A stretch of 57,934 bases of DNA from Deltaproteobacteria bacterium (GCA_031264145.1 JAISEK010000105.1:1-57934); one strand, 5' to 3'; positions 33,538 through 55,905 are shown, counted from the first letter of the stretch. Notes: generated from the letters alone by a model not told the origin. Program-made: numbers and translations.

Positions 33538-33619
33538 TCTATGGGGACCAGCCTTGGCACCCGGCGAGAGCCCCCTAAGACAAAAAGGGAAAGGGGGCGC
33601 TTGAACCGCCAAGGGCACG

Positions 33620-35094
33620 ACACTTGAGGGTATTTTTCAAATTGACGGGCCCACATGGATGGGGGGATTGAAGAAGCGGGCCGCCTTGACCAAAAAATTA
33701 AATGAAGACAAAATAGAGACTGGCAATTTTCCCCCAAAAAAAAAGCCACCGATTATTATAAACAAAACGTCAAGACTAAGTCAAGATTAAAAAATAATTT
33801 AGGCGACCATAAAACTTCAGCCAAATGATAAATTTACAATAATTTAATAGAATAAATTTAACTATACAATATAAAAATTTGTTATAACTACAATAACTAG
33901 ATTATTTCAAATTTTTAGTTAGCAAAATAATTACAAACTATTTAAAATGCAGCAAAAAATATAAATAGAAAATTAAAATAAATTTAATATATTAAATTTT
34001 ATAAATAATATATATATTTTGAATCATAAAATATTTTACTTTATAAAATACTATATCTTACTTGCAGAGAAAATTACTATTAATGCATTAATATATATAA
34101 AATAATTTGATATATTTTGTCATGCTTAATATATTAGAGTTTGTATTATATATTTAAATATGATTAACATGTAAATATATCAATTATTATTAAAATACTA
34201 TAATTATGTTTAAAAATATAAATTTATTGTTTTATAGTAAAAATAATTTATAATATATTTCAATTTTTATAATATTTAATTAATATAAAATTATTTTATA
34301 AATATTATTATAAATTCAAATAGCCAATAGATTACAAAAATCAGGACTTGATTCTCGGGCCATGCAAGACCATATTAACATTGCCTGTGAAGGGAACCGG
34401 TCTTAGGATAGGCTGATTTCACAATTCTCTAAAGATAACAAGTCAGATTCGATGTTTTACTCGTAAGCCAACCTTTTGGAACGCATGTGCACGCAATAGT
34501 GTCAAGTTGGCTAGTTGGTTGTTATTCCATGATTTATCCACCCTCTTTTTGGCGAGTTCAATTTCGGCACATATTTGAAAACCCTGGGGAGATTTCCTCA
34601 CAGGCTCTCGACACTGGCAACCAGTCCTTGGCCATTTGCTGGCACCTCGGTGATCAAGATGGGCCTTGGGCCTACTGAACCTGGCCCGAGCCGCAATTAT
34701 TGCCATAACTCCGGTTTGAGCATATAGTCAAGGGAAAACGGACAGCGAATCATCGGGCCCGGACCGGGCTAGGATTGGCCTGGCCTTGCGAAGACCGCCC
34801 TCTTTCCCGGCCAACTGTGAACTCCCCTGTGATGTCGGCAATGGGAGGGCCAGCCGTACCTGGGCCCCAGGGAGACCCGATGAGAGGCTTGGCGGGCAGT
34901 AGGGTGGTCTGCGCCACTGGCCGGAGCCGGTCATGGTGGATGCCCAACAACGCTATACAGTGATTTTGTATTAATAAAATTTTATTTGACAACACTATAT
35001 AGTTTTGCTACTGTAAAAAAATAACCACAGGGCCCTGCCCCACCGAGCCAGTCTTCCGTGGCCATGGCCCAACACTTCTGTTAGGAGCTGTGCT
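33620..35094. other. large spacer with extreme AT-rich core (about 33750-34330)
   Basis: No gene. The core is dominated by A/T runs with only rare G/C, in sharp contrast to flanking genes. From 34330 to 34970 composition returns to intermediate GC with no recognisable frame, probably remnant DNA. The last 110 bases hold the promoter of the methyltransferase gene at 35095. Confidence 0.6.
34986..35014 (+). promoter_or_regulatory. promoter of the MeTr-like gene with CTATATAG palindrome in the spacer
   Basis: -35 TTGACA (34986-34991), a 17-base spacer and -10 TACTGT (35009-35014), about 80 bases before the ATG. The spacer contains ACACTATATAG (34992-35002), whose CTATATAG is a perfect palindrome. 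The same ACACTATATAG lies in the spacer of the 37984 promoter. Confidence 0.7.
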
Positions 35095-35913
35095 ATGATA
35101 ATAATAGGCGAAAAAATCAACGGCACCCGCAGAAAGGTGGCCGAGGCCATTGCCAGCCGCAACGAGGACTTCATCAAGGAGCTGGCCCTGAGCCAATTCA
35201 AGGCCGGGGCTTTCTACCTTGATGTCAACGCTGGCACCCTGCCTGCCCGCGAGCCGGAGGATCTGGCCTGGCTGATTGATCTCGTGCACCGGGCCGCCCC
35301 GGAGGCCATCATCTGCCTAGACAGCGCTAACCCGGAGGCCCTGTCGGCCGGGCTGGAGAAGGTCAGCGGCTACAATCCATCAAAGATGATGGTCAACAGC
35401 CTCTCGGGGGAGCAAAAGCGGGTCGAGGGTGTCCTTCCGTTGGCCGCCAAATACAAGTCCGAGCTCATCGTCCTGGCCCTAGACGACAAGGGCATACCGG
35501 CCACGGTCGAGGGGCGGCTCGAGATCATACGGCACCTAGTGGGACTGTGCCGGGAGCAAGGTCTGCCAGACTCCAGCCTGTTCATCGATCCCTTGGTCAT
35601 GACCGTCTCGACCAACGGCCAGGCCGGCCTGATTACCCTGGAGACCATCAAGGCGGTCAAGGCCGAGTTCCCTGAGGCCCACCTTACCTGCGGACACTCC
35701 AACATCAGTTTCGGCATGCCTCTCCGTAGCGTGGTCAACCAGAGCTTCATGGCCCTAACTATCTACGCCGGACTGGATTCGGCCATAACCGATCCCGAGA
35801 ACCGCGACCTCAGGGCGGCCACGCTGGCCACCGAAGCCCTTCTGGGCCTGGACCGGCACTGCCTCAGGTTCAATAGGGCCTTCAGGGCCAAGGCCATCGG
35901 CCCTATCGCCTAA
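35095..35913 (+). CDS. pterin-binding (MeTr/AcsE-like) methyltransferase
   Basis: 272 residues, dihydropteroate-synthase-like TIM barrel. MIIIGEKINGTRRKVAEAI, AGAFYLDVNAGT, CLDSANPEAL and LTCGHSNISFGMPLRSVVNQ are the usual blocks of CH3-tetrahydrofolate:corrinoid methyltransferases (MeTr, AcsE) and of methyltransferase II of O-demethylase systems. Expected role: transfer of a methyl group between a corrinoid protein and tetrahydrofolate in the cytoplasm. GGAG sits 7 bases before the ATG. It has its own promoter (34986-35014) and lies about 0.5 kb upstream of the first UroD-type gene, so it probably provides the folate side of the same pathway. AcsE of the Wood-Ljungdahl pathway is an alternative, but no acs genes are nearby. 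Confidence 0.85.
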   Translation: MIIIGEKINGTRRKVAEAIASRNEDFIKELALSQFKAGAFYLDVNAGTLPAREPEDLAWLIDLVHRAAPEAIICLDSANPEALSAGLEKVSGYNPSKMMVNSLSGEQKRVEGVLPLAAKYKSELIVLALDDKGIPATVEGRLEIIRHLVGLCREQGLPDSSLFIDPLVMTVSTNGQAGLITLETIKAVKAEFPEAHLTCGHSNISFGMPLRSVVNQSFMALTIYAGLDSAITDPENRDLRAATLATEALLGLDRHCLRFNRAFRAKAIGPIA

Positions 35914-36412
35914 CCCAGGGGACCGGCTCCCATGGCTTTGGTCCTTTCTCCCTCGTGTGCCAAACACGGCCTCAGTGCCCTTTTGTGATTATCCAGGGGC
36001 AGGCAAGGTCGTTCCAGTGGCATAAAAACCATTTTCTGGCAATTAGACAGATGTTATCAGAAAAAATATTTTAATATCTTAAATAAAAGCTATATATGAT
36101 CACATTAACACCATTTATTTACATATAAAAATTACTAATATATCGAACATAGTCATTTTAAATTTTAAAGGTGTTTTAACTGGGCATAATCTTTCCCCGA
36201 TACCTTTTTCGGACCTCGGAATAATACGCCCTTCCAGGCCCCAGACCGCACCCGGCTTAAAGTCGGCCAATTTCGTCGGTTCCTCATGTGCCTGGAGGTG
36301 AACCGGGCCAGGGACCCAAAGGGCCTTAGCCGACTTGAGGATCGGCCTGGCCCCAGGGACGCCTTCCTCCTTTCCCGGGCGCCCCCCGGAGGACGCCAGA
36401 CGAGGTCCGCCG
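35914..36412. other. spacer, partly AT-rich
   Basis: 36060-36170 is AT-rich without a gene. From 36240 the frame of the following methyltransferase is open but not similar to its paralogue, so it is treated as untranslated leader. Confidence 0.45.
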
Positions 36413-37738
36413 TTGTCTTGGGAGACCCGCCGAAAAGCGCGCCTGGAAAGGTGGCTCAATCCTCCCGGCCTCACGTTCGAAAGCCAGGAAGCCAAGAACG
36501 ACTATCAGGCCAGGATTACCAGGATGGCCAAGGCCATGACCCTGTCCGGGATCCCTGACAGGGTGCCCCTGCTCCCAAACTACACCTTCATGCCAGCCTA
36601 TGTCCTGGGCTCAAACGCCATGGCGGCCATGAGCGACCAGGACCTGGGCTTTGCCCTGTGGCAAAGGTTTTCCAGGGAATTCCTTCTCGACTCCTACAAC
36701 TTCTACGCCCTGACCTGTCCCATCCCCCTTATGGAGAAGATCCAATACCTGCTGTACCAGTGGCCTGGCCACAAGGGCCTCTCGGAAGACCAGACCTACC
36801 GCTACGTCCCCCGCGACTGGCTGACGTCGCCCAAGAAATACGCCGACATCGCCCTTGACCCTTCTGCCTTTTGGCTGAAGGAGTTCGTGCCCCTGGTCTG
36901 CGGGGCCTTACAGGGCATGTCGCGGATGGAACTGTTCACCGGACTGTCCTGGACCGAGCCGGCGCGGCTGTGCCTGGCCCTGGCCTCCTACGGCAGGGAG
37001 GACGTCCAGGAGGCCATCCGCAACCTGATGGAGGCCGGCAGCCTGGCCCTGGCCTGGGAGAGGAAGGCCGAGGCCTTCGTCGCGCTGCTGGCCGGCCAGG
37101 GCTATCCCTCGTTCGCCGGCGGATTCAGCAAGGCCCCGTTCGATCTGCTGACCGACCAGCTGCGCTCCAGGAGGAACGCACTTCTTGACATTGCCCGCGA
37201 GCCGGAGTCGCTTCTTGAGGCAATTGAGGTCCTTACACCCATGGTGGCCGAGCAGGCCATCAGGGCCATAGACAGGACCGGGAACCCCATCGTCTTCATG
37301 CCCCTGCACACCGGAGATGACGTCCTTATGAGCCCCGGCCAGTTCGAGAGGTTCTACTGGGCCCCCCTCAAGAGGGTCTTCGAGCTCATAATCGAGGCCG
37401 GGGGCCTCCCCCTGGCCTTCGCTGAGGGCAGCTATAAGAGCCGCTGCGACTATTTCCTGGACCTGCCGAGGGGAGGCGTGACCTGGATCATCGACCGCAC
37501 GGACATGGCCTTCCTCAAGCGCCGGGTCGGCCACCACTGCTGCCTGGCCGGGAACGTCCCCGGCTATATGTTCCTTATGGACGATCCCAAAAAGCTGGGG
37601 CTGTATTGCAGGAAGCTCATAGAGGAAGTTGCCCCCGGCGGCGGCTTCATGATGTCTTCGGGCACGGCCCTGGACAAGGCCAACCGGCCCATGGTCCGGG
37701 CCATGATCGAGACCACCCTGGAACACGGCTTCTATTGA
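36413..37738 (+). CDS. uroporphyrinogen-decarboxylase-family methyltransferase (paralogue A)
   Basis: 441 residues, UroD-like TIM barrel as in the corrinoid methyltransferases MtaA, MtbA and CmuA. The TTG at 36413 is chosen because LSWETRRKARLERWL aligns with the N-terminus of the paralogue at 41501 (MSTWQEKRQARFEKWL) and GAGG lies 7 bases upstream; the ATG at 36335 would add 26 unrelated residues. Conserved blocks shared with that paralogue: YQWPGHKG, GGFSKAPFD, FMPLHTGDDVLMSPGQFERF, AFAEGSYKSRCDYF, IDRTDMAFLKRRVG and CCLAGNVPGYM. The HxC zinc motif of MtaA is replaced by an EG.Y motif, with a Cys kept before GNVP, so zinc ligation and substrate probably differ. Likely methyltransferase I, acting on an unknown methylated compound. 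Confidence 0.8.
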   Translation: MSWETRRKARLERWLNPPGLTFESQEAKNDYQARITRMAKAMTLSGIPDRVPLLPNYTFMPAYVLGSNAMAAMSDQDLGFALWQRFSREFLLDSYNFYALTCPIPLMEKIQYLLYQWPGHKGLSEDQTYRYVPRDWLTSPKKYADIALDPSAFWLKEFVPLVCGALQGMSRMELFTGLSWTEPARLCLALASYGREDVQEAIRNLMEAGSLALAWERKAEAFVALLAGQGYPSFAGGFSKAPFDLLTDQLRSRRNALLDIAREPESLLEAIEVLTPMVAEQAIRAIDRTGNPIVFMPLHTGDDVLMSPGQFERFYWAPLKRVFELIIEAGGLPLAFAEGSYKSRCDYFLDLPRGGVTWIIDRTDMAFLKRRVGHHCCLAGNVPGYMFLMDDPKKLGLYCRKLIEEVAPGGGFMMSSGTALDKANRPMVRAMIETTLEHGFY

Positions 37739-38215
37739 TGAGGCCGGATATCCGGGATTGTCGGGCTTGGCAGTGAAATTTCGGAGTTTTTGACTATTTT
37801 TTGGATGAAATTTGCCATATAAACTTATATATCTAATTATATAAATAATTTTTATATAATTATATTTAATAATAGTTATATTATTCTTATAAATATATAA
37901 TTATAAGCAAAATAAATATTATTTAATACCCAGATACCCAGCCTCAGAGCTTGAAAAAATAGAGCCTGGGTCCGAAAAAAGTCTTGACTGAAAAAACACT
38001 ATATAGTATTATGCAATCATCGGCTAAAAAGACGAGCAAACATTCAAAGTGCTTAAGGGCAAACCGGCCCTTAACGGGACCAGCCTAGCTAGAGCGTTGT
38101 CTCCCTGGCCTGGCCACCAGTCCCCTGGAAGGCCGCCAAACCGGCCCAGTTCCACCCCTTCCCCGGCAACCAGCCATGTTTGGCCGCAAGGCCAGGTTGC
38201 CCAAACGAGGTGAGC
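37739..38215. other. AT-rich spacer holding the promoter of the transporter-methyltransferase operon
   Basis: 37790-37930 is extremely AT-rich and gene-free. The promoter at 37984-38012 follows; the leader from there to 38215 is GC-rich. Confidence 0.5.
37984..38012 (+). promoter_or_regulatory. promoter with ACACTATATAG element
   Basis: -35 TTGACT (37984-37989), 17-base spacer, -10 TATTAT (38007-38012). The spacer ends in ACACTATATAG (37996-38006), identical to the element in the 34986 promoter. It is followed about 200 bases later by the MFS gene and then the other methyltransferase genes. Confidence 0.7.
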
Positions 38216-39403
38216 ATGTCTGACGCCCAACACTCGCCCTATCGTTTCGTCATCGTCGTGGTGGTGGCCCTGGCCTCCTTTCTGGGCAACTTCACAATCT
38301 TCCAGATGGCCGGCCTGGCCCCCAAGATTATTGGGCTTGCCTCCCTGACTGGGAGCCAATTCGGCCTGGTCGTTGGCATCTCAATCCTAACGGCGGCCGT
38401 CTTGGGCCTCCCCCTGGGGGCATTGGGCGACCGAGTCGGCGTCAAGCCGGTGGTGACGGCGGCCATGGCCGTGACCATCGCCGGCTGCGTCGGCCGCTAC
38501 CTGGCCACCCCGTCCTTCGGAGCCTACCTCTTCTGGATGTTTTTGGTAGGGGCGACCAACGCCGCCCTGAACGCCAACTTCATCAAGGTACTTGGTGTCT
38601 GGCTGCCCCCGAGCGGCATCGGGGTTGGAGTGGGCTGTTACCTGACCGGCATTGGCCTGGGACAGGCGACGTCCATCGGCATGGGGCCAAGCTTCGAGCT
38701 GATCGGCCCAGCCTTCATGGTCTCCATCGTCCTGGCCGTGGTCGTGGCCGTGGTCTGGCTGGCCCTGATCAGAAACCCGCCCAGCCTTAACAGGGCCCAA
38801 GTCCAGCCTATGATCGCCAGCCTCTCCTACGTGGCCAAAAGGAAGAACGTTTGGATCGGCGGCCTGGGCATCCTTTTCATGCTGGGGACATACGTGTGCC
38901 TGACATCCTTCGCGGCGAATTTCCTTGGCGCAGAAAAAGGTGCCGCCCCAAAGTCGGCCTCGGCCTGCGCCTCGGCCGTGGCCGCCTTCATGCTCGTGGG
39001 CGCCCTCATCGCCGACCGTCTGGCCAGGCTCATGCGCAGCTCGAGGATGTTCCTCTTGGCCTGCGGCCTCATTTCCGGCATGGGGGTCTTTCTGGCGGCC
39101 AAGGTCTCCTTCGGCGCGCTGACGCTCGTCCTCCTCTCCCTGTCCGGCCTGGCCTCGGGGGCCTTCTGCTCCTTCATCCTGTCCCTGCCCATGCTCCTCA
39201 GGGACATCGGGCCGAACTACGCCGGAAGCGCAGGGGGGCTCATCAGCACCCTCCAGTCGTTCGGCGGCTTCCTTTTGCCGACCCTTATCCCCTGGCTGGC
39301 CGGTAACTCCCTGCCGACAGTGATGCTCCTTACGGCCGGCGGCTTCGTCCTGATGGGCCTGGTCACCCTGCCCCTGCCCGAGCTGGTGAGGAAAAGGGGC
39401 TAG
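38216..39403 (+). CDS. MFS transporter
   Basis: 395 residues, 12 hydrophobic spans. GALGDRVGVKPVVTAAMAV between spans 2 and 3 is the MFS motif A (G.L.DR.G.K). ATG at 38216 with GAGG 5 bases upstream. The pattern resembles the NarK/oxalate-formate antiporter side of the superfamily, but substrate cannot be read from sequence. Being first in the unit with two UroD-type methyltransferases and a corrinoid protein, it is the obvious candidate for importing the methylated substrate or exporting the demethylated product. Confidence 0.88.
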   Translation: MSDAQHSPYRFVIVVVVALASFLGNFTIFQMAGLAPKIIGLASLTGSQFGLVVGISILTAAVLGLPLGALGDRVGVKPVVTAAMAVTIAGCVGRYLATPSFGAYLFWMFLVGATNAALNANFIKVLGVWLPPSGIGVGVGCYLTGIGLGQATSIGMGPSFELIGPAFMVSIVLAVVVAVVWLALIRNPPSLNRAQVQPMIASLSYVAKRKNVWIGGLGILFMLGTYVCLTSFAANFLGAEKGAAPKSASACASAVAAFMLVGALIADRLARLMRSSRMFLLACGLISGMGVFLAAKVSFGALTLVLLSLSGLASGAFCSFILSLPMLLRDIGPNYAGSAGGLISTLQSFGGFLLPTLIPWLAGNSLPTVMLLTAGGFVLMGLVTLPLPELVRKRG

Positions 39404-39550
39404 CCGAGATGAGCCCTCCCCTGCGTAGGGCCATCGCACAGACCTTTCCCAAGAATACCTATTTTCGGCCGCAAGTCCCTTGAGGGCCGGGCGTGAAGGC
39501 CAGCGGCGGTGCCTGGCCGGCGCCCTGGCCTGGCAAGAGAGGAGGACTAC

Positions 39551-40795
39551 ATGGTTGACAATAAGGCGCTCTTCGCTGAGCGCCAAAAGAGATACTATGA
39601 CACCATAGCCCTAAGGAAGACCGACCGGGTGCCCATCGTGCCCATGGTCGACACCTTCCCCATCCGCTACTACGGGGCCAAGATGGAGAAGGCCATAAAC
39701 GATCACGGGATACTCGACGATCTGTGGCTGCGGTTCCACGAGGAGTTCCAGCCGGACATCGGCGACACCCCCTACTTCATCAACGGCTTTTTCGGCATCT
39801 CCAGCATCCTCGACTTCAGGCTGCTCAAATGGGCCGGGCACGGCCTGGACGACGACGCCTCCTACCAGTTCGTGGAAGACGAGATGATGCTGCCAGAGCA
39901 GTATGACTGGTTCCTGTCAGATCCCTCCGACTTCATGTTCAGGCACATGTTCCCCAAGGTCTACGGCCGCCTGGCTCCCCTGGCCAAGCTCCCACCTATA
40001 ACTGGCAGCTACTATTTCTTCACCCCGTACATCTGGGCCGCCTTGGCCGACCCGGACATCCAGGACGCCGGCAGGGCCCTGGCCGAGGCCGCCCAGGAGT
40101 CCATGAGCACCCTGGGAAAGATGGCCCACTACCACCAGGCCCTTGCCGAAGCCGGCTGGCCCCTGCCCCAGGGAGCCATGACCCAGGCCCCCCTGGACAT
40201 CGTCGGCGACTACCTGCGCGGCATCAAGGGCATGCTCGTGGACCTGCGCCGGAGACCCGAGAAGCTCTTGGCCGCCTGCGACAAGCTTCTCCCCCACATG
40301 CTGGATCTGGCCATAGGCAACGTGAGGATCTCCGGAATCCCTATATGCTTCATCCCGCTCCACAAATGCATGGACAACTTCATGAGCCAGGCCCAGTTCG
40401 AGAAGTTCTACTGGCCCACGCTCCTTGAGCTCATGAGGGCCCTCGTGGCGGAGAAGATCTCGCCCTACCTTCTGATCGAGGGCGTCTGCGACACCAGGCT
40501 GCCCATAATGATCCGCGACGCCCCCCCTGGCATGTGCGTCTACCATATCGAGAACAGCGACATCTTCGAGGCCAAGAAGCTGGCCCGCGACAAGGTCTGT
40601 CTGCGGGGGAACGTCCCGGCCTCCATTCTCTCGACCGGCACCCCAGACGACGTGCGGGGCTACTGCAAGAGACTCATCGACGAGGTGGCCGTCGGCGGCG
40701 GCTTCATAATGGACACGGCCGTCAACCTGACGGAAGCTAGACCGGAAAACGTCAAGGCCATGTTCGACTACACCAAGGAACATGGCGCATACTGA
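39551..40795 (+). CDS. uroporphyrinogen-decarboxylase-family methyltransferase (paralogue B)
   Basis: 414 residues, the most divergent of the three UroD-type proteins here. Start ATG 39551 with GGAGG 5 bases upstream. Shared blocks: IALRKTDRVPIVPM, LLKWAGHGL, MTQAPLDIVGDYLRG, FIPLHKCMDNFMSQAQFEKF, LLIEGVCDTRLPIM, YHIENSDIFEAKKL, VCLRGNVPASIL and DEVAVGGGFIMDT. As in the paralogues an EG motif takes the place of HxC of MtaA, and a Cys precedes GNVP; here an extra Cys follows EGV. It lies directly upstream of the corrinoid protein gene, so the two are probably cognate partners. Whether it demethylates the substrate or reacts with a carrier cannot be decided. Confidence 0.82.
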   Translation: MVDNKALFAERQKRYYDTIALRKTDRVPIVPMVDTFPIRYYGAKMEKAINDHGILDDLWLRFHEEFQPDIGDTPYFINGFFGISSILDFRLLKWAGHGLDDDASYQFVEDEMMLPEQYDWFLSDPSDFMFRHMFPKVYGRLAPLAKLPPITGSYYFFTPYIWAALADPDIQDAGRALAEAAQESMSTLGKMAHYHQALAEAGWPLPQGAMTQAPLDIVGDYLRGIKGMLVDLRRRPEKLLAACDKLLPHMLDLAIGNVRISGIPICFIPLHKCMDNFMSQAQFEKFYWPTLLELMRALVAEKISPYLLIEGVCDTRLPIMIRDAPPGMCVYHIENSDIFEAKKLARDKVCLRGNVPASILSTGTPDDVRGYCKRLIDEVAVGGGFIMDTAVNLTEARPENVKAMFDYTKEHGAY

Positions 40796-40859
40796 AGGCC
40801 ATGGGGCCTGGCCCCCAAGGCATTTCCAGGGGCCAAGGCCCCTTTAGAAGAGGTAGAAG

Positions 40860-41483
40860 ATGGAAAAGATCACCACGGCCATGGCCGACATGCTTGAAGA
40901 CGAGCTCATGGCCCTGACCGACAAATACCTGGCCGAGGGGAAGGATCCCAAGGCCATTCTGGATGCCTACCAGGCCGGCATGACCGAGGTTGGCAAGCGC
41001 TACGAGGCCGGCGAGTACTTCGTCTCCGAGCTCATCCTGGCCGGCGAGATGATGACCGCCGGGAGCGACAAGATCAAGCCATTCCTGAAGGGTGCCTCGG
41101 AAGCCGGGCCGACGAAGGGTCGGGTCCTCATAGCCACCGTCGAGGGCGACATCCACGACATCGGCAAGAACATCGCCGGGACCATCATGGAGCTGGCCGG
41201 CTACGAGGTCAGGAACCTGGGCGAGGACGTCAAGACCACAAAAATAGTAGAGGAGGTCAAGAACTACAAGCCCAAGCTCGTGGGACTTTCGGGCCTTCTG
41301 ACCCTCGCCTACGACCCCATGAAGGCCGTGGTCGACCAACTCAGGGAGGCCGGCCTCAGGGATCAGGTGAAGGTACTTCTGGGCGGCTCCCAGATTGACG
41401 ATCACATTCTGAAGTACGTCGGGGCCGATGTCTTCGCCAACGACGCCATGACCAACGTCAATTACCTCAATTCCCTGGCCTGA
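40860..41483 (+). CDS. corrinoid (B12-binding) methyl carrier protein, MtaC/MtbC-like
   Basis: 207 residues. Residues 1-85 are the helical cap domain (LAEGKDPKAILDAYQAGM, GEYFVSELILAGEMM), the rest a Rossmann-like cobalamin domain with EGDIHDIGKNI: Asp97, His99 and Gly102 of the DxHxxG motif, where His is the lower cobalt ligand; VGLSGLLTLAYDPM and VLLGGSQID complete the B12 pocket. It accepts a methyl group from a substrate-specific methyltransferase and hands it to the pterin methyltransferase. It lies 64 bases after paralogue B and 17 bases before paralogue C. This is the only corrinoid protein for three UroD-type proteins in the window. No reductive activase (RACE) gene is present here. 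Confidence 0.94.
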   Translation: MEKITTAMADMLEDELMALTDKYLAEGKDPKAILDAYQAGMTEVGKRYEAGEYFVSELILAGEMMTAGSDKIKPFLKGASEAGPTKGRVLIATVEGDIHDIGKNIAGTIMELAGYEVRNLGEDVKTTKIVEEVKNYKPKLVGLSGLLTLAYDPMKAVVDQLREAGLRDQVKVLLGGSQIDDHILKYVGADVFANDAMTNVNYLNSLA

Positions 41484-41500
41484 GGCCAAAGGAGGCTCCC

Positions 41501-42820
41501 ATGTCCACTTGGCAGGAAAAGCGACAGGCCCGCTTCGAGAAGTGGCTTGAGCCCGGGGTGCCCTTTGCCAGCCCCGAGACCAAGGCCGCCTACCAGGGCA
41601 GGGTCCAGAGAATCATAGACGCCATAGAGCTGAGGAAGGCCCCTGACCGGGTCCCCGTCTACCCCAACTACACCTATTTTCCGGCCTACGCCTACGGGTC
41701 CCTACCCAGGGAGGTCATGAGCGACGTCAGGAAGGCGGTCGAGATCTGGGAAAGGTTCGTCAAGGAGTACGGCTTCGACGCCTTCGGAATCATCGGCATC
41801 ATCGCCCCCATCCCGGTCATGGAGGCCCTGGACTACAAGCTCTACCAGTGGCCAGGGCACGGCGGGGTGCCCGAGGACAGCATCTACCGCTACTTCGAGC
41901 ACGACTGGCTGGTCGAGGCCAGGGAGTACGACGACCTGGCCCTCGACCCCACCGACTGGTGGATGAGGCAGTACATCCCCCGCTTCTGCGGGGCCCTCTC
42001 GGGCTTCACCAAGCTCCCCAACTTCACCGAGTTCATGGAGCTGCCGAACCTGGCCGGCTTCCTGGCCCCCTTCGGCCTGCCGGAGGTCCAGGAGAGCCTC
42101 AGGAAGCTCATGGAGGTCGGCTCCATGACCCTCGAGTGGATGGGTGCCGTGGGCGGCCTCATCGGCAAGCTCATCTGCGACGGCTTCCCGACATCGGCCG
42201 GCGGCTTCGCCAAGGCCCCCTTCGACACCCTCTCCGACACCTTCAGGAGCTTCAAGTCGGCCATGCTGGATCTGAGGCGCAACGGTGATCGCATGATCGC
42301 GGCCATGGAGACCCTGGCCCCCCTGGCCATCAAGATGGCCGTCCAGGCCATCGACGGCAGCGGCAACCCCCTGGTCTTCATGCCCCTCCACAAGGGGGCC
42401 GACGGCTTCATGAGCCAGGCCCAATTCGAGAAGTTCTACTGGCCCACGCTCAGGCAGGTCTTCGACGGCATCATCGAGGCCGGCGGGGTCCCGGTGCCCT
42501 TCGCCGAAGGCGGCTACAACCAGCGCATGGACTACATGGCCGAGCTGCCCAAGGGGGCCGTGGCCTGGATGATCGACCGCTCCGACATGAAGGAGCTCAA
42601 AAGGAAGGTCGGCGGCAACTGCTGCCTCATAGGGAACGTGCCCTCCTCCATACTCCACGCCGGCACGCCGGCCGATGTCGACAAGTGCGTGAAGGAGCTT
42701 ATCGACGACATCGCCCCTGGCGGCGGATTCATGCTGGCCACCGGCACCGTGACCGACGAGGGCCGGCCTGAAATGATCAGGGCCATGGTCGAAGCCGGAC
42801 TCAAGTACGGCAAATACTGA
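41501..42820 (+). CDS. uroporphyrinogen-decarboxylase-family methyltransferase (paralogue C)
   Basis: 439 residues, close paralogue of the protein at 36413. Blocks: KAPDRVPVYPNYTYFPAYAY, YQWPGHGGVPEDSIYRYFEH, GGFAKAPFDTLSDTFRSFKS, FMPLHKGADGFMSQAQFEKF, PFAEGGYNQRMDYM, IDRSDMKELKRKVGG, NCCLIGNVPSSIL and GGGFMLATGTV. As in paralogue A, EGGY stands where MtaA has HxC; the conserved Glu, Asp (IDR.D) and Cys are candidate metal ligands. ATG with GGAGG upstream, 17 bases behind the corrinoid protein gene. Followed by a strong hairpin (42869-42907), the probable end of the operon. Confidence 0.85.
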   Translation: MSTWQEKRQARFEKWLEPGVPFASPETKAAYQGRVQRIIDAIELRKAPDRVPVYPNYTYFPAYAYGSLPREVMSDVRKAVEIWERFVKEYGFDAFGIIGIIAPIPVMEALDYKLYQWPGHGGVPEDSIYRYFEHDWLVEAREYDDLALDPTDWWMRQYIPRFCGALSGFTKLPNFTEFMELPNLAGFLAPFGLPEVQESLRKLMEVGSMTLEWMGAVGGLIGKLICDGFPTSAGGFAKAPFDTLSDTFRSFKSAMLDLRRNGDRMIAAMETLAPLAIKMAVQAIDGSGNPLVFMPLHKGADGFMSQAQFEKFYWPTLRQVFDGIIEAGGVPVPFAEGGYNQRMDYMAELPKGAVAWMIDRSDMKELKRKVGGNCCLIGNVPSSILHAGTPADVDKCVKELIDDIAPGGGFMLATGTVTDEGRPEMIRAMVEAGLKYGKY

Positions 42821-42868
42821 GACCATTCCTCCCGAGGAACCTTGGCCCATCTTCGCGGCCCTTCCTCT

Positions 42869-42916
42869 CCCCCAGGCCAGGGGCGCAATCTCCCTCTGGC
42901 CTGGGGGGTTCCTTTT
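42869..42916 (+). terminator. probable terminator of the methyltransferase operon
   Basis: Perfect 12-bp stem CCCCCAGGCCAG/CTGGCCTGGGGG (42869-42880 and 42896-42907) with a 15-base loop, followed by GTTCCTTTT, a short T-rich tail. It stands about 50 bases beyond the last gene. Confidence 0.65.
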
Positions 42917-43339
42917 GCGGACGTACTCACCCCGATAATAGTATCTTCCCTCATCGACCGCATCAGCCAAAAAATGCCGAAACCATCAGCCAAAGCCAAT
43001 TATAGCAATAAATTATATAATATTTATTTTGAATTATATTTTTAGTGTAATAATATATACTAAATTAATATAAAGACAATAAAATATAGTTATTTTTACA
43101 ATTTTAAAAAATAATAGATAAGGCAATCGAGATTTGTCAAAATTATATAGACAGCTTAAATCCAAAACATATCATTGAAATACTAGACATTATAGCAGGT
43201 AGTGGGCAATTCTAGTTGGCAAAATCATTTCTCAGGGTTAGAATGCGAAAATAGACATTGGGGAGGTTGCCTATGACTGCGAGCGAACGAGTATCTTGTC
43301 CAAACGAGGGTTACGTGGATTACAGGAAAACTGGTGGAA

Positions 43340-43500
43340 ATAGCATCACCATTCGTGGCAGTAAGGAGTGTCTATTGCAGTCAAAATCGATGTTTCACCG
43401 TATCACAGTTCAAGTTCATTTTCTTTAGTAGTCGCTTCATTTTGAAAAAAAAACCACAGCTCATCAAGCTCAACTTAAGTCAATTGGAGCGATGGCATCA
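43340..43500 (-). pseudogene. IS1-like transposase remnant (N-terminal block)
   Basis: Minus-strand frame VELDELWFFFQNEATTKENE around 43430-43474, preceded in another frame by a PID-like residue trio. The DELW.F block is the first catalytic segment of IS1-type DDE transposases. Only a short piece survives. Confidence 0.4.
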
Positions 43501-43739
43501 AACCACAGAAGATCTCCTGGCGGTGTTCACCTGCTTCGACGATCACCTGGTTTACCGCCGCTTTAACGTCGCTCTGACACTTACGCCTTCAGCAGCGTGA
43601 TGGATAACCTGATATACTTGGTCAGCCGCCAGGCGCTCCCAAAACAGAGGAGTGTTGGGTTGAGTCAAAGCGTTTTCCTCAAGTCCGGCAATAAAGAAGA
43701 ACCTTATCATGGTTCTTTCAATACTTGGTCGTGGTCTAG

Positions 43740-43835
43740 ATCCATTAACAGACCCTAGCCGTCAACAGCTCGGTGACGCTCCAAATGTGGTCAGTAACCT
43801 TGGCGCACATGGCTGGGTGATTTTTTCAATAGTAC
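43740..43835 (-). pseudogene. transposase C-terminal remnant (IS1-like)
   Basis: Minus-strand frame AMCAKVTDHIWSVTELLT, matching the familiar C-terminal ending P-A-M-A-A-G-I-T-D-H-V-W...ELL of IS1-like transposases. It stops soon after; no complete element or ends were found. Confidence 0.45.
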
Positions 43836-44339
43836 TCAATAAACTATATAGCCTAATTAGATTACAAAATAATCTATTAATATTAATTTAAAATTAAAAA
43901 TATTTTGAAAAAGCCACATTTGTTCTTCTTAAATTAGTCTCATTTAAGCATCAAGTGCTATTTAAACGCTCTATATAAGTAATATTAGTTTCTTTAATTA
44001 AATAATAATCAAAACAAAGGTAAAAAATTTCTTGTTTTCAAATATAATATTTTTATTGTTATAATAATACATATTTTCATGAATATTGTTATTATTAAAT
44101 AATTTATATTAATTCTTATCTGAATTATAAGTTTATAAGGTCTACTTATTAGCTAAGTTCATGGAACAGGGACTTCACGGCAGTATAAATAAACAAGTAT
44201 GCTTGTATAATGATCAAGATCATAAAACTTAAATAAATTTGTATATGTTTTAATATTACTTAACCCAGTAAATATCATATATGCGGCTAACAGTTCATGT
44301 CATCCGATATGCGTATTTAACATCATTATGGTTCGAACA

Positions 44340-44490
44340 TCTATGGCAGTTCAGATCCATTTTTCACATATGCCTGCTTCAATTTCCAGAGCATTGGCGG
44401 CTTTTTTCTTTCTTACATAAGTCTAAAGCTCGTCAAGTTGTAACTCGGTAGGCGTAAGATCATTTTCTGTATAGCCAGTAAGGCTTCCGC
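44340..44490 (-). pseudogene. IS1-like transposase remnant (N-terminal block, second copy)
   Basis: Minus-strand frame ENDLTPTELQLDEL followed, after an in-frame stop in place of the expected Trp, by TYVRKKKAANALEIEAGICE. This is the same TPxELQxDELWTxVxKK block as in IS1-type transposases. It may belong to the same decayed copy as the C-terminal piece at 43.8 kb. Confidence 0.45.
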
Positions 44491-45168
44491 CCGATTAGTG
44501 GCCTTTTTATATATCTATTTATAGTAGTTTTATAGAAATTAGTTGCCCTATAGAAGTATTTAATCCGAATAAATCAACTGATATCAAAATATTAATTATA
44601 TTTGTTTATGTTATGAAATATACAAGTAATTAATAAATTTTATTACAATATAGACAGTACAGAATAATATTATCATGCTTTTTAATATATAGCATTAATA
44701 GTTATGTTACCATATCTTATTACAAAGTTATTTAAGTTTATATCAGCTATAATATATTATATAGACATAAAATTATATTATTATATCTATAAAAGTCTCA
44801 GACGTCAAATTTTATCAATCAAGCTAGGCTACGAACGTCACTAGTGATCCTAGTAAGTATGCCAATTTGATTATCAAAGAATTATAATTTAATTTTTTAT
44901 GAGTATTAAATATATTATAATATATAATTTAATCATAAAAATGTTTATCAAGTAAATTCACTAGTTGTACACTATAAATACTAATTAAAACACTTATATA
45001 AGAAATTAATCATCATATATCTAGTCGTATACGCTCATTTTATTCTTAAATTAGGTAGAAAGGCGAATTTCACATCTCGACGCCGGCTAGGCTTGCCTAG
45101 GCCCAGACGGCGTCGCCAGGAGTCCCTAAAAAGCCCATGCCCTCGTTCCGATACCCACGGAGGACCCA

Positions 45169-46239
45169 GTGACCTCGTTTCTGCCTGGACAGGCACCCCG
45201 CCGCCTGTCGCCCTTCATTTTGGGCCTGGTCCTTTTGGCCGCCCTTTTCCTGGTGGCCCTCGTCTCGCTGTCCAGCGGCTATATGCCCTACACGGCCGGA
45301 GAGATAAAGGACGTCCTCCTATCCCTGATTTCGGACCACGACTCCGGCCTCGCGGAGAACAGGACCATGGTCCTGGTGCAGGTACGGCTTCCCCGGCTCG
45401 TGACCGCCATGGTCTCCGGGGCCGCCCTTGGCCTCTCGGGGGCCGTCTTCCAGGGTCTGCTCCTCAACCCCCTGGCCGACCCCTACACCCTGGGCGTCTC
45501 CTCAGGGGCCGCCTTCGGGGCCTCGGTGGTCATCATGGCCTCGATGGCCATCGGCGGTGCCTCCTTCCTGGCCAGTCCACTGGCCGCGACAATGGGGGCC
45601 TTCGCCTCCTCGGCCCTGACCCTGGTCCTGGTCATCTCCCTGGCCTCGGACGGCGACCGAAGGCTGTCCCCGACCAGCCTGGTCCTTTCGGGGGTCATCC
45701 TCTCGGCCATCCTATCGGCCGGCATCTCGTTCATAAAGTATCTGGCCGGCGACCAGGTCGCGTCCATCATCTTCTGGCTTCTGGGAAGCTTTCAGGCCAT
45801 GACCTGGACCGAGGCCACCCTGGTGATGGGCTTCTTCGTCCCGGCCTTCGCCGTCTGCATGGCCTCGGCCACCGATCTCAATGTCATGACCCTGGGCTTC
45901 AGATCGGCCGAGACCCTGGGCGTGGACACCCGCCGGGTCCGGCTGCGCCTCCTGGCCGCCGCCTCGCTGGCCGCCTCGGCCTCGGTGGCCGTCTCCGGCA
46001 TCATCGGCTTCGTCGGCCTGATCGTGCCCCACCTGGCAAGGCTCCTGGCCGGCCCTGACCACCGTTCCCTTCTACCGCTGTCGACCCTGGCAGGAGCGGT
46101 CCTCCTCCTGGCCGCCGACACCGCCGTGCGGGCCTTTCTACCAGGGGAGATCCCTGTCGGGGTCCTGACTGCCCTCCTGGCCGGGCCGGCCTTTCTGGTC
46201 ATCTTCAGGCGGAAGATGAGGACCCTGGCCGATGCCTAG
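45169..46239 (+). CDS. FecCD/BtuC-type ABC permease
   Basis: 356 residues with about 10 membrane spans. VRLPRLVTAMVSGAALGLSG, AVFQGLLLNPLADPYTLGVS and SGIIGFVGLIVPHLARLL are the standard motifs of permeases importing Fe-siderophores, haem or cobalamin. GTG start with GGAGG 5 bases upstream. The 3' end overlaps the ATPase gene by 8 bases. No binding protein is adjacent; one is found at 57210, beside the B12-regulated chelatase, so cobalamin or a corrinoid is a reasonable but unproven substrate. Confidence 0.92.
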   Translation: MTSFLPGQAPRRLSPFILGLVLLAALFLVALVSLSSGYMPYTAGEIKDVLLSLISDHDSGLAENRTMVLVQVRLPRLVTAMVSGAALGLSGAVFQGLLLNPLADPYTLGVSSGAAFGASVVIMASMAIGGASFLASPLAATMGAFASSALTLVLVISLASDGDRRLSPTSLVLSGVILSAILSAGISFIKYLAGDQVASIIFWLLGSFQAMTWTEATLVMGFFVPAFAVCMASATDLNVMTLGFRSAETLGVDTRRVRLRLLAAASLAASASVAVSGIIGFVGLIVPHLARLLAGPDHRSLLPLSTLAGAVLLLAADTAVRAFLPGEIPVGVLTALLAGPAFLVIFRRKMRTLADA

Positions 46240-47089
46240 TACCGACAAGACGCCCTGGCTCCAGGCTGACGGCCTCTGCTTCAGCCATGGGCCCAGGAGG
46301 GTCGTGGACGATCTGTCCCTGGCCCTGTTCCCTGGCCGGCACTACGTCCTTGCCGGCCCCAACGGGGCCGGCAAGAGCACGGTCCTGGACCTGCTGTCGG
46401 GCCTGAGGAAGCCGGAACGGGGCATCGTCAGTCTCATGGGCCGGGTTCTGGATTCCTACGGGGCCGGCAAGCAGGCCAAGCTGGTGGCCCTGGCCCCCCA
46501 GAACCAAGCCTTTGGCTTCGCCTTCACGGTCAGGGAGGCTGTGCGCCTGGGCCGCAGGCCACACCTGGGCCGCTGGGGCCGCCTGGGCCCGGATGACCAC
46601 CGGGCCGTCGGAGAAGCCATCGAAAGGATGCACCTGGAACCCCTGGCCGACAAGCCAGTCACCACCCTATCGGGCGGGGAAGCCCAGAGGGTCGTCCTAG
46701 CCAGGACCATGGCCCAGGCCACGCCAATCCTCCTCCTGGACGAGCCCTCCAGCAACCTGGACGTGGCCCAGGCCCTGGATCTGATGGCCACCCTGGGCGA
46801 GTTGGCCCAAAACGGGTCCCTGGTGGTGACTGTCAGCCACGATCTTGGACTCGCCGCGACCTTCGCCCAGGAAATGGCCCTCATGCGGGACGGCCGGCTG
46901 GTGGCCGCCGGACCCAAGGAGGAAATCCTCACGCCGGCCCTCCTGGAAAAGGTCTTCGCCGCCGAGGCGGCCGTGAGGCCGGACGACTTCACTGGGGGCC
47001 TGGCGCTGTCTTTCAGGAGGCCCAGGGCGGGCGGACGCGCCGTTTTTACTGATCCGTCTGCGGGCAAAGCCGCGGGCCGGTCCGATTAG
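46232..47089 (+). CDS. BtuD/FepC-type ABC ATP-binding protein
   Basis: 285 residues. Walker A GPNGAGKSTVLDLLSG (about 44-59), Q-loop LAPQNQAFGF, signature LSGGEAQRVVLARTMAQ, Walker B ILLLDEPSSNLDV and switch His in VTVSHDLGLA. Energises the permease encoded just upstream. The C-terminal 40 residues (AGGRAVFTDPSAGKAAGRSD) are an extension with no known motif. Confidence 0.92.
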   Translation: MPSTDKTPWLQADGLCFSHGPRRVVDDLSLALFPGRHYVLAGPNGAGKSTVLDLLSGLRKPERGIVSLMGRVLDSYGAGKQAKLVALAPQNQAFGFAFTVREAVRLGRRPHLGRWGRLGPDDHRAVGEAIERMHLEPLADKPVTTLSGGEAQRVVLARTMAQATPILLLDEPSSNLDVAQALDLMATLGELAQNGSLVVTVSHDLGLAATFAQEMALMRDGRLVAAGPKEEILTPALLEKVFAAEAAVRPDDFTGGLALSFRRPRAGGRAVFTDPSAGKAAGRSD

Positions 47090-48507: not shown

Positions 48508-49863
48508 TCAGTATTTTTCAGCCTGGGCCTCAGCGGCGGCCCGTTCCAGGGCCTCGCGGACCTTATCGGGCTGGCCCTCGTTTTGGGCGATGATCTCAGC
48601 CACGCGGTCATAGCCCAGCCTGGGGACGAAGGACGTGGCGAAGGCCAGGGAGTCCTCCAGGATCCGGGCGCAGCGCCCCGGATCGGGCTCCAGGGCATCG
48701 AGGCATTGACCCCGGAAGATCATGACGGCCCGCTCGAGGATGCCCAGGCTTTCCAGGAGAGACTCGGCTATGAGCGGGGAAAAGGCGTTGAGCTCGAACT
48801 CGCCGTGGGCTGCGGCCATGGTCACGGCCTGGTCGTTGGCCATGACCCTGATGGCCACCTCTATGACCATCTCGGGAATGACCGGGTTGACCTTCCCGGG
48901 CATGATGGTGCTGCCCATCTGCCTCGGGGGCAGCCTTATCTCGCCCAGGCCGCCCCTGGGCCCAGAGTTCATGAGCCGAAGATCTGAGGCTATCTTCATG
49001 AGGTTTACGGCCAGGGCCTTGAGAAGGCCCGAGACCTCGACGAAGACGTCGTTGTTCTGGGTAATGTCCATGGGATACTCGGCCGCAGCCAGGCCCAGGC
49101 CAGTGATCTCCCTAAGGTTTTCCAGTATCCTGAAACGGTAGCGTCTCTCGGCGTTGTCGGAAAGACCCACGGCCGTGCCGCCGATATTGATCTGCCTAAG
49201 CCTTTCCTCAATCTTGTAAAGACGCCAGCGGTCCCTGGCGATGGCCTGGGCATAGGCCCCAAACTCGTCGCCAAGGGTGATGGGGACGGCGTCCATGAGC
49301 TCGGTCCGGCCAAGCTTCCTGATCCCGGCGTACTCGTTCTCCTTTCCCTGCAAGGTTTCCTGGAGGCCAGCGCAGGCCTGGCTCAGGAGCCTCAGGAGTT
49401 CTATGGCCGCTATCCTGAGGGCCGTGGGGTAGACGTCGTTGGTGGACTGGCCGCGATTGACGTCATCGAGGGGGTGGACCAGGCCGTAGCTTCCCAGCGG
49501 CTGGCCCATTATCCTCAGGGCCAGGTTGGCCAGGACCTCGTTGACGTTCATGTTGGTGGAGGTTCCGGCCCCGCCCTGGATGGCGCCGACTATGAACATG
49601 TCCTGGAACATCTCCCGGCCATGCGGGGACAGGATCTCGTCGCAGGCCCGATCAATGGCCTCGAAGACCGGAGCCCTTGGGGGGTCAAGCTTCCGATAGG
49701 CCATGGCCGCAGCCTTCTTGACCTTGACGATGGCCGCGATCAAGCTCCAGTTGGAGGGCGGGAGGCCCAGGTCAAAATTGTCCCTGGCCCGGAGGCTTTG
49801 GAGACCGTAGAGGGCCCCATCGGGCAGGGCCAGCTCGCCCATCCTGTCCCGCTCGACCCTCAT
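48508..49863 (-). CDS. aspA: aspartate ammonia-lyase
   Basis: 451 residues, fumarase/aspartase superfamily. Signature GSTIMPGKVNPVIPEMV carries the conserved loop with the catalytic Ser/Thr; GGAGTSTNMNVNEVLANLA and HPLDDVNRGQSTNDVYPTAL supply the substrate-site residues and distinguish it from argininosuccinate lyase. Aspartase and fumarase are hard to tell apart by sequence; GTSTNMNVNEV favours aspartase. Its ATG overlaps the hydF stop by 4 bases, so it is translated with the hydrogenase maturase. In Desulfovibrio an aspA gene likewise sits among hydrogenase maturation genes (recalled, not checked). Confidence 0.88.
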   Translation of the reverse strand: MRVERDRMGELALPDGALYGLQSLRARDNFDLGLPPSNWSLIAAIVKVKKAAAMAYRKLDPPRAPVFEAIDRACDEILSPHGREMFQDMFIVGAIQGGAGTSTNMNVNEVLANLALRIMGQPLGSYGLVHPLDDVNRGQSTNDVYPTALRIAAIELLRLLSQACAGLQETLQGKENEYAGIRKLGRTELMDAVPITLGDEFGAYAQAIARDRWRLYKIEERLRQINIGGTAVGLSDNAERRYRFRILENLREITGLGLAAAEYPMDITQNNDVFVEVSGLLKALAVNLMKIASDLRLMNSGPRGGLGEIRLPPRQMGSTIMPGKVNPVIPEMVIEVAIRVMANDQAVTMAAAHGEFELNAFSPLIAESLLESLGILERAVMIFRGQCLDALEPDPGRCARILEDSLAFATSFVPRLGYDRVAEIIAQNEGQPDKVREALERAAAEAQAEKY

Positions 49864-51074
49864 AGGTCAAGCTCCCCCAGCTCGGCCAGGACGTGCGGGA
49901 AGACGGAGAGGCTCCTTTTGAGGATGCCCTGCATGTGGGCGATGGCCGTGCCGAAATTGGTCATCGGGATCCCCTGGTCCTGTGATGTCTTGAGCCGGTA
50001 CCTGACCTCCCTCTCGTTTAGCATGCACCCCCCGCAGTGGACCACCAGGGCCAGTCCGGACAGATCCTCGGGGAAGTCGCCCCCGGACGTGTGCCGGAAT
50101 TCCAGCTCGGCCCCGGAGTAGCCCCTAATCCAGCGGGGCAGCTTGACAGTGCCGATGTCGTCGCACTGGCGGTGGTGGGTGCAGCCCTCGGCTATGAGGA
50201 TCCTGTCGCCGTCCCGCAGGGAGTCCAGGGCCATTGCCCCCAAGGCCACCCCCTCCAGGATGCCCTTGTAGCGGGCGAAAAGGATGGAGAACGAGGTCAG
50301 GGGGATGTCCGGCGGGGTGTCGGCGGAAACCTTGGCGAAGACCTGGCTGTCGGTTATGACCAGAGCTGGCCGGCGGCCCAGGCTCCCAAGGACGTCCCTG
50401 AGCTCGAACTCCTTGACCACCACGGCCGCGGCGTCGGCCTCAAGAATGTCCCTGATGGTCTGCTGCTGGGGGAGGATCAGCCGTCCCTTGGGGGCGGCCT
50501 TGTCGATGGGGACCACCAGGACGACTAGGTCCGATGGCCGCACCAGATCGCCGACGATCCTGAGCTTGCCCTCCTCCGTCCTGGCCAGGCCGGCGATGGT
50601 CTCCTTCAGGCGTCCCATGTTGTGGCCGGTCGCCGCGCTCACGTAAATCTCGCCCGGCCCGGGCTCCGGGATCCCTGGAAGGAGGTCGCTCTTGTTCATG
50701 GCCGTCACGTGGGGGATGGCCTTGTCCACGAAGAGGCCCAGTAGCTCCCGGTCGGCACCGGACAGGCCCGAGGCCGAGTCGACCACAAGGACGGCGACGT
50801 CGGTCTTGTTCAGCACCTGCCTGGCCTTCCGGACCCGCTTTTCCCCCAGGCTGCCGACGTCGTCAAGACCAGGGGTGTCTACGATCATCACCGGGCCCAG
50901 GGGCAGAAGCTCCATGGACTTGTAGACCGGGTCGGTGGTCGTGCCCATGACCTCCGAGACGACGGCCAGATCCTGGCCGGTCACGGCGTTGACCAGGCTG
51001 GACTTGCCGGCGTTGCGGCGGCCAAAGAAGCCTATGTGCACCCTGTTGGCCGAGGGAGTGTCGTTCAAACCCAT
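49860..51074 (-). CDS. hydF: [FeFe]-hydrogenase maturation GTPase HydF
   Basis: 404 residues, three domains. GTPase: GRRNAGKSSLVNAV (19-32), MGTTTDPVY, IVDTPGLDD and MNKSD. Then a dimerisation domain and an Fe-S domain with EGCTHHRQ (Cys298, His300) and HCGGC (His346, Cys347, Cys350), the CxH...HCxxC motif that holds the [4Fe-4S] cluster and the [2Fe] precursor. HydF delivers the diiron subcluster to HydA. ATG at 51074 is chosen because GGGGGG lies upstream and homology begins there; an ATG at 51092 is possible. hydE, hydG and the hydrogenase itself are outside the window. Confidence 0.95.
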   Translation of the reverse strand: MGLNDTPSANRVHIGFFGRRNAGKSSLVNAVTGQDLAVVSEVMGTTTDPVYKSMELLPLGPVMIVDTPGLDDVGSLGEKRVRKARQVLNKTDVAVLVVDSASGLSGADRELLGLFVDKAIPHVTAMNKSDLLPGIPEPGPGEIYVSAATGHNMGRLKETIAGLARTEEGKLRIVGDLVRPSDLVVLVVPIDKAAPKGRLILPQQQTIRDILEADAAAVVVKEFELRDVLGSLGRRPALVITDSQVFAKVSADTPPDIPLTSFSILFARYKGILEGVALGAMALDSLRDGDRILIAEGCTHHRQCDDIGTVKLPRWIRGYSGAELEFRHTSGGDFPEDLSGLALVVHCGGCMLNEREVRYRLKTSQDQGIPMTNFGTAIAHMQGILKRSLSVFPHVLAELGELDL

Positions 51075-55716: not shown

Positions 55717-55905
55717 TTTCGGGTGCCCAAGGGGCCCAACAGGGAAGACAGTCAAAATCTGTCGCGGTGCCGCCGCTGTGGGCGGGAAGCAGACTCCAGG
55801 GGGCCTGGCCCCAGCCACTGCCGTTTAGGGTGGTCACGTGACCGCCGGTGGGAAGGCGGAGTCCCTGCGTTGACCCGCAAGCCAGAAGACCTGCCCGGAA
55901 AGCCA
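55717..55905 (+). promoter_or_regulatory. cobalamin (B12) riboswitch aptamer
   Basis: The conserved elements appear in order: GGTGCCC (55722-55728), CAACAGGGAAGACAGTCAAA (55737-55756) followed by ATCTGTCGCGG, GCCGCCGCTGTG (55769-55780), GGTGGGAAGGCGGAG (55847-55861) and the B12 box AAGCCAGAAGACCTGCC (55879-55895). This matches the adenosylcobalamin aptamer layout. It precedes the exported chelatase gene cbiK and an expression platform with two strong hairpins. Repression by B12 through the terminator is inferred. Confidence 0.93.

Follow-up and report, generated by a model that had tools for sequence, protein, structure and literature searches.

The contig JAISEK010000105.1 of a Deltaproteobacteria bacterium (GCA_031264145.1), 57,934 nucleotides long and referred to below, in its whole length, as the window (parent genome 4.0 Mb in 198 contigs), carries at positions 35,095–42,820 a cluster of six genes for corrinoid-dependent methyl transfer that, with a probability of about two in three, specifies an O-demethylase similar to the Mtv and Mto systems. 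Three interchangeable substrate-specific methyltransferases (MTIs; UroD1, UroD2 and UroD3) would serve one corrinoid protein (CP), a second methyltransferase (MTII; MeTr) would pass the methyl group to tetrahydrofolate (H4F), and a GntR-type regulator would read an operator that precedes both transcription units. The six open reading frames (ORFs), all on the plus strand in the order MeTr, UroD1, MFS, UroD2, CP and UroD3 (Table 1), presented a third-position GC content of 0.81–0.92, which is coding-like in a window of 60% GC. A preliminary description of this DNA had listed a MeTr-like gene, three UroD-family genes, one corrinoid protein with a DxHxxG motif and a transporter of the major facilitator superfamily (MFS), all on one strand over 7.7 kb; this inventory was confirmed with Pfam and NCBIfam, and the start codons alone were revised (UroD1, probable TTG at 36,413; MFS, ATG at 38,213; UroD2, ATG at 39,551). 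The same description had taken the cluster to be of an uncharacterised kind, a view that was not upheld, since two O-demethylases already described, Mtv of Moorella and Mto of Methermicoccus and Archaeoglobus, are built from the same set of components. MeTr-UroD1 is divided from MFS-UroD2-CP-UroD3 by 0.4 kb, in which a separate promoter lies, so that two transcription units are probable.

Protein Folds and Active Sites

The best PDB match of MeTr was found to be 4o0q (E = 3e-66; next match 3e-41), which we take to be the MeTr of the same Desulfitobacterium hafniense O-demethylase system as CobDH. When aligned to 4o0q and AcsE, MeTr keeps the pterin (H4F) site residues LDS, MVNS, IDP and SNIS, and it matched the NCBIfam model PRK07535 above the model cut-off. 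CobDH (4jgi), which is the cobalamin-binding component of what is putatively an O-demethylase in D. hafniense (PMC3727330), is the best PDB match of CP (E = 6e-50; next match 2e-37), in which both B12-binding domains (PF02607 and PF02310) are present and the motif EGDIHDIGKN contains DIHDIG (DxHxxG). Among the MTIs, UroD1 and UroD3 share 46% identity and UroD2 31–34% with either, in agreement with the earlier wording of two close paralogues and one divergent protein. AlphaFold2 models of UroD3 and UroD2 were confident (pLDDT 94.5 and 94.0, respectively), and the UroD/MtaA fold was recovered for UroD3 (4wsh, Z 26.9, 3.3 Å over 314 residues; 4ay7, Z 26.1) as well as for UroD2 (1r3s, Z 26.6), in a fold library that is without CdmB and in which the matches were UroD and MtaA. 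The nearest PDB sequence of all three MTIs is CdmB, a chloromethane methyltransferase, with 26–29% identity.

Two residues stand out in the presumed active site. Among 61 aligned relatives, His297 (in PLHK; UroD3 numbering) never varies, and Glu336 (in AEG) is conserved in 59, with Asp in the other 2; both are kept in UroD1, UroD2, UroD3 and the MtvB-like enzymes, with Trp and Gln instead in CdmB (n = 1). The window MTIs show AEG or IEG in the columns where MtaA-type proteins of the host carry H-x-C. The preliminary description had read this replacement as an argument against the use of coenzyme M and for a distinct zinc site; the alignment columns and the first argument stood, and the second did not, because MtvB-like enzymes have the same Glu with its upstream His, and zinc has been reported as absent from both CdmB and the O-demethylase of Moorella, while the Acetobacterium dehalogenans enzymes contain it (PMC13222342). 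At the level of sequence, the 'EG' motif corresponds to that found in the O-demethylase-like group, and it supports no statement on zinc.

Proposed Shared Carrier and Phylogeny

Orthologues of UroD3 with 83–85% identity were found in six other genomes from two genera, and the modules around CP are combined differently among the relatives. CP-UroD3 occurs together with MeTr in the genomes G011, G012 and G013, and a UroD2-CP module in G009, G011 and G030; G031 carries MeTr, UroD2, CP and UroD3, and G030 has MeTr-UroD1 by itself (locus L052) and MFS-UroD2-CP-UroD3-FecCD-ABC at another locus (L047). In G012, which is 92% complete, UroD3 is the sole MTI of this type, accompanied by CP and MeTr. A UroD2 remnant of 120 aa lies beside an intact CP-UroD3 in G010 (contig C137; L046:10928-11290). 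The CPs from UroD2-only, UroD3-only and mixed modules share 84–96% identity and do not sort by partner. Since near-identical CPs accompany UroD2 alone, UroD3 alone or both, one CP type appears to serve both MTI types, and a carrier common to several MTIs, as the preliminary description had proposed, is well supported by these comparisons. The MTIs do not appear to be mutually dependent, given UroD3 only in G012, the UroD2 remnant in G010 and the separate MeTr-UroD1 of G030. An obligatory relay, to which the suggestion of a partially demethylated intermediate would lead, is therefore not supported by the gene arrangements, the 92%-complete relative with UroD3 alone being the clearest case.

The MTI tree comprised 84 rows, with MtoB, OdmB and VdmB not among them and CdmB represented by residues 171–429 only. 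UroD1 and UroD3 were found in one Adiutricaceae clade (100/100) inside a 42-row clade (100/99) that also includes the long MTIs of Moorella and Desulfofundulus as well as many from Chloroflexota, Acidobacteriota and Myxococcota, and UroD2 in a separate Adiutricaceae clade (100/99). Because UroD1/UroD3 and UroD2 fall in different clades, two MTI lineages have been brought together on one carrier. A clade of 63 rows (99/99) contains all window MTIs but not the MtvB-like enzymes, CdmB, whose fragment stands outside on a long branch, or the CobDH-linked MTIs; the MtvB-like rows form a separate 14-row set (82/83) that contains none of the window MTIs. A plasmid search for named reference MTIs returned only a distant Sporomusa termitida protein.

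Host, Corrinoid Activation and Methyl Sink

The relatives in the named collection are termite-gut bins labelled 'Deltaproteobacteria' and 'Candidatus Adiutrix sp.', i.e., Adiutricaceae, and sequence comparison places the host close to Candidatus Adiutrix. Some Adiutricaceae are putative acetogens that possess the Wood-Ljungdahl pathway and do not reduce sulfate (PMC9137090). A corrinoid activase, for which the preliminary description had suggested a search elsewhere in the genome, was found twice, as RACo-type proteins (PF14574) of 641 and 576 aa on contigs C115 and C128 of the host. AcsB is also present, and CODH-like and AcsC-like genes, these two identified by eye, adjoin it. On the strength of the two RACo proteins and of AcsB with its neighbours, the host possesses both a means of corrinoid activation and a sink for methyl-H4F; together with the H4F-type MeTr, they support the original assignment as a corrinoid methyl-transfer cluster.

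Promoters and a Candidate Regulator

The palindrome ACTATATAGT, found before both transcription units (Table 1), has six exact copies in the 4.0-Mb genome, of which two belong to the cluster, and its reversed control has none; behind the remaining four copies in the host genome there were no recognisable methyltransferase genes. Thirteen sites of the form RCTATATAGY were counted in the family loci (268 kb in total), and 10 of them were followed within 350 bp by a gene for MeTr, an MFS transporter, an MTI, GntR or an outer-membrane-protein-like product; such upstream zones make up 8.8% of this sequence (P = 6e-9, or 3e-5 without the four motif-defining sites, related loci not being fully independent). 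Such sites in Adiutricaceae loci are at L047:494, L048:5248, L049:4860/4871/4978, L052:6428, L053:4223, L059:2309 and L238:5359. A family-wide regulon, with RCTATATAGY before the corrinoid methyltransferase genes and before a gene pair for a GntR/UTRA protein and a B12-binding protein, is thus possible.

This gene pair was encountered in several places. In G004, a GntR/UTRA + B12-binding pair is divergent from MeTr-UroD3, with three RCTATATAGY sites in the intervening DNA. The host carries the orthologous pair (58% and 60% identity) on contig C197, where ACTATATAGC precedes it by about 0.65 kb and DUF1638 and an outer-membrane-protein-like gene are close by; a GntR + B12-domain + DUF1638 group adjoins the operon of the Moorella genome G054 as well. 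The GntR/UTRA + B12-binding pair probably reads ACTATATAGT, and we propose that it controls the cluster and senses either the substrate or the state of the corrinoid. For Cdm, no regulatory system has been reported, and the regulation of such systems has been described as largely unexplored (PMC13222342). No conserved site like ACTATATAGT was seen in the Moorella promoters, where ATATATGTATA(G/A)AC recurs instead, upstream of several MeTr genes of Moorella-like genomes, and no convincing sigma-54 promoter was seen near the cluster. One further ACTATATAGC is at 43843, within the AT-rich flank downstream of the cluster. A second GntR homologue (57%; G000:C139:19731-20459 and L060) has an in-frame TGA in the matched frame, and its neighbours encode a B12-binding domain, an MtaA-like UroD protein and a CobW protein.

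Proposed Mechanism and Alternatives

In the proposed mechanism, the MFS transporter would import methylated compounds, most likely methoxylated aromatics, and UroD1, UroD2 and UroD3 would each bind a different substrate in a UroD-type TIM barrel. The Co(I) of the shared CP would attack the methyl group, yielding CH3-Co(III)-CP and the demethylated product, and MeTr would transfer the methyl group from CP to H4F, from where it would enter the Wood-Ljungdahl pathway and acetyl-CoA; a RACo activase encoded elsewhere would reduce oxidised Co(II) to Co(I). Both transcription units would be under the ACTATATAGT operator, read by the C197 GntR/UTRA protein and its B12-binding partner. An Mtv/Mto-like O-demethylase is favoured because the gene content equals that of the Moorella operon L204 and resembles the Mto operon, because the closest solved relatives of MeTr and CP belong to the D. 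hafniense O-demethylase system, and because His297/Glu336 are common to the relatives and the MtvB-like enzymes and are Trp/Gln in the haloalkane enzyme CdmB; the retained pterin site of MeTr, the presence of RACo and AcsB and the CPs that are not sorted by partner argue in the same direction. Methoxylated lignin fragments are plausible as substrates since the host belongs to a termite-gut lineage of which several members are putative acetogens.

Several points weigh against the O-demethylase. The window genes name no aromatic substrate; the 63-row clade that holds the window MTIs, a sister clade (99/99), has no biochemically characterised member placed in it; and the comparison was made without sequences of MtoB, OdmB and VdmB. 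CdmB shows that haloalkane use is possible in close relatives, and the closeness to 4o0q and 4jgi depends on which proteins were crystallised. As to regulation, the GntR gene is on a different contig from the cluster, and some 0.65 kb separate it from its own candidate operator upstream.

Non-aromatic O-, N- or S-methyl compounds, such as methoxy-sugars, pectin or hemicellulose methyl esters, betaines and methylated thiols, one for each MTI, are unlikely as the true substrates. The MTI clade without assigned substrates would accommodate them, and sugars and betaines are also among the compounds taken up by MFS carriers, the window MFS itself giving weak NCBIfam matches to galactonate and phosphoglycerate transporters; the known methylamine and betaine MTIs, however, are of the MttB family, which is absent from the cluster, and in the Moorella operon the accompanying genes encode Mtv components. 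It is quite unlikely that the three MTIs take successive methyl groups off one polymethylated substrate (e.g., from trimethoxybenzoate to the dimethoxy-hydroxy and then the methoxy-dihydroxy compound). The co-localised genes, with UroD2 and UroD3 flanking CP, and the recurrence of two MTI lineages around one CP in G030, G031 and G010 would suit such a pathway, but it is hard to reconcile with the single MTI of G012, the UroD2 remnant in G010 and UroD1 alone with MeTr in G030. A haloalkane (chloromethane-type) dehalogenating system like CdmBCA, with MTIs that guide small methyl halides to the corrinoid, is very unlikely, although CdmB is the best PDB match of all three MTIs, the MTIs of haloalkane degraders are scattered across uncharacterised clades of the superfamily (PMC13222342) and a Formimonas MTI falls inside the same 63-row clade. 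Since no long-form MTI other than CdmB has been solved, its rank as nearest PDB entry says little; its low identity, its position outside on a long branch and its Trp/Gln argue against a common substrate, and an MFS carrier would be superfluous for a methyl halide. A HemE-like role of the UroD genes in making or modifying tetrapyrroles, with the cluster serving B12 or haem synthesis, was rejected as scarcely credible: the UroD fold and the FecCD-ABC uptake system next door would fit, but the three are not true uroporphyrinogen decarboxylases, scoring far under the cut-offs of the HemE model TIGR01464 (UroD3 23 bits against 303; UroD1 and UroD2 no match) and the MtaA/MtbA/CmuA model TIGR01463 (UroD3 24 bits against 235), their linkage to CP and MeTr is constant, and other PF01208 proteins of the host genome score much higher.

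If the O-demethylase reading is true, lignin-derived methoxyl groups would be a further food source of termite-gut Adiutricaceae, which have until now been considered chiefly as acetogens growing on H2/CO2. The cluster would offer a natural setting in which to test whether a single corrinoid carrier is truly common to distantly related MTIs, and the concrete candidates for an operator and a regulator pair, in pathways with regulation reported as largely unexplored, are the most testable new part.

Feature Coordinates and Neighbouring Genes

Table 1. Positions (from the first nucleotide of the window), predicted roles and supporting evidence of the cluster genes, their promoters and the adjoining uptake system.
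Feature	Position	Strand	Assignment	Evidence
MeTr-UroD1 promoter/operator region	34952-35003	+	half-conserved GCTATACAGT at 34952; perfect palindrome ACTATATAGT at 34994-35003 beside TTGACA	same site pair before MeTr-UroD1 in G030 (L052)
MeTr (MTII)	35095-35913	+	predicted methyl-corrinoid:tetrahydrofolate methyltransferase	PF00809 (E 8e-19); PRK07535; PDB 4o0q E 3e-66
UroD1	36413-37738	+	predicted substrate-specific corrinoid methyltransferase (MTI), UroD fold, sister of UroD3	PF01208 E 5e-13; CdmB 9rui E 9e-23; tree
MFS-UroD2-CP-UroD3 promoter	37984-38012	+	TTGACT-N17-TATTAT enclosing candidate operator ACTATATAGT (37998-38007)	same element before MFS-UroD2-CP-UroD3 in G030 (L047)
MFS transporter	38213-39403	+	putative uptake of methylated (aromatic) substrate	PF07690; 34% identity to Moorella-operon MFS
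UroD2	39551-40795	+	predicted MTI of second lineage	PF01208 E 2e-13; CdmB 9rui E 4e-35; tree; AlphaFold2 pLDDT 94
CP	40860-41483	+	corrinoid carrier protein with DxHxxG	PF02607 + PF02310; PDB 4jgi E 6e-50
UroD3	41501-42820	+	predicted MTI, best conserved of the three across the family	PF01208 E 8e-23; orthologues 83-85% identity; AlphaFold2 pLDDT 94.5
FecCD permease + ABC ATPase	45169-47089	+	siderophore or cobalamin type uptake	PF01032; PF00005

The FecCD-ABC system, which adjoins the cluster in G030 too (L047), possibly supplies it with corrinoid. The cluster is flanked by AT-rich stretches without recognisable genes at 33619-35094 (37% GC) and 42821-45168 (34% GC), and no pseudogenes were detected by tblastn in these gaps. 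Elsewhere in the window, a cobalamin riboswitch (RF00174, 88.9 bits) was found at 55717-55901, near the contig end, and HydF adjoins an aspartase-type lyase at 48508-51092. By eye, a tryptophan biosynthesis operon (trpA, trpB, trpC, trpGD-like, trpE) is at 1374-8119, and two overlapping ORFs resembling an AbiEi/AbiEii type IV toxin-antitoxin system, with third-position GC below that of their neighbours, are at 24284-25565.

Comparison with Known Systems

The nearest parallel is presented by G054, which is almost certainly Moorella thermoacetica, as inferred from gene order and from an AcsE 100% identical to the M. thermoacetica protein. One of its clusters (L203) has MeTr, an MTI of 389 aa and CP; the other (L204, 4098-12318) has MeTr, an MTI of 390 aa, CP, MFS, an MTI of 447 aa, DUF1638, GntR/UTRA and a second B12-binding protein, and the order and position of the two match Mothe_c03140-03190 and Mothe_c12950-13030, which appear in the literature as genes of Mtv or of related systems (PMC13391211). 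The window shares MeTr, MTIs, CP and MFS (34% identity) with L204. The two short MTIs of G054 are MtvB-like and 79% identical to each other, and the 447-aa MTI shares 43% identity with UroD3 and 38% with UroD1; Moorella thus combines one short MtvB-like and one long MTI, whereas the three MTIs of the window are all of the long type, come from two lineages and include no MtvB orthologue. A comparable gene set was found in Desulfofundulus australicus (L209).

The Mto systems of Methermicoccus shengliensis and Archaeoglobus fulgidus similarly combine MTIs (MtoB1 and MtoB2 in Methermicoccus) on one CP with MFS transporters (PMC8630106, PMC8359953); the Methermicoccus operon has two MtoB per one MtoC, with MtoA, the activase MtoD and MFS transporters, and several of its genes are induced by methoxylated aromatics (PMC8630106). 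Unlike the MtrH-like MtoA, which uses H4MPT, the MTII of the window is a PF00809 H4F-type MeTr, and the window cluster has no activase of its own. Two MT-I proteins also occur in one of the six O-demethylation systems of Eubacterium callanderi (PMC12915777), so that several MTIs per carrier are a known design, with precedents in Moorella, Mto and E. callanderi. CdmBCA of A. dehalogenans is alike in its UroD-fold MTI of similar length (CdmB, 429 aa), separate CP and H4F-dependent MTII, and differs in its divergent sequence, its Trp/Gln, its single MTI and the lack of MFS in the cdmBCA cluster. The D. hafniense proteins CobDH and MeTr are the best PDB matches of their window counterparts, and the Bacillota MTIs beside CobDH-like CPs fall outside the clade of the window MTIs. 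With MtaA, MtbA and CmuA the window MTIs share the UroD fold (4ay7, Z 26) but not the HxC zinc motif.

Larger sets were found in Chloroflexota contigs (L072, L073, L076, L086 and L107), where 4–7 tandem MTIs occur with one MeTr and, where the contig reaches, one CP, the same paralogues following in the same order on several contigs according to their tree positions. L071 and L084 are also among the Chloroflexota/Dehalococcoidia contigs with 4–7 tandem MTIs, L084 without MeTr in view. In the open-access literature, no account of O-demethylation in Adiutricaceae or of Chloroflexota MTI arrays was found. It may tentatively be proposed, as a somewhat doubtful generalisation, that many front ends on one carrier are a general design in anaerobic demethylation, with three MTIs per CP in Adiutricaceae and 4–7 in the Chloroflexota arrays, and that it is switched by a GntR/UTRA repressor and a B12-binding partner sensing methylated or oxidised corrinoid, in Adiutricaceae through ACTATATAGT. 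Compared with the known systems, the chemistry is of a familiar kind, the number of front-end enzymes in the cluster is somewhat unusual and the host is unexpected; the three-for-one arrangement, the host lineage and the candidate switch are new or little described, and what is new is the ACTATATAGT palindrome with its predicted regulator pair, together with the Chloroflexota arrays of 4–7 MTIs.

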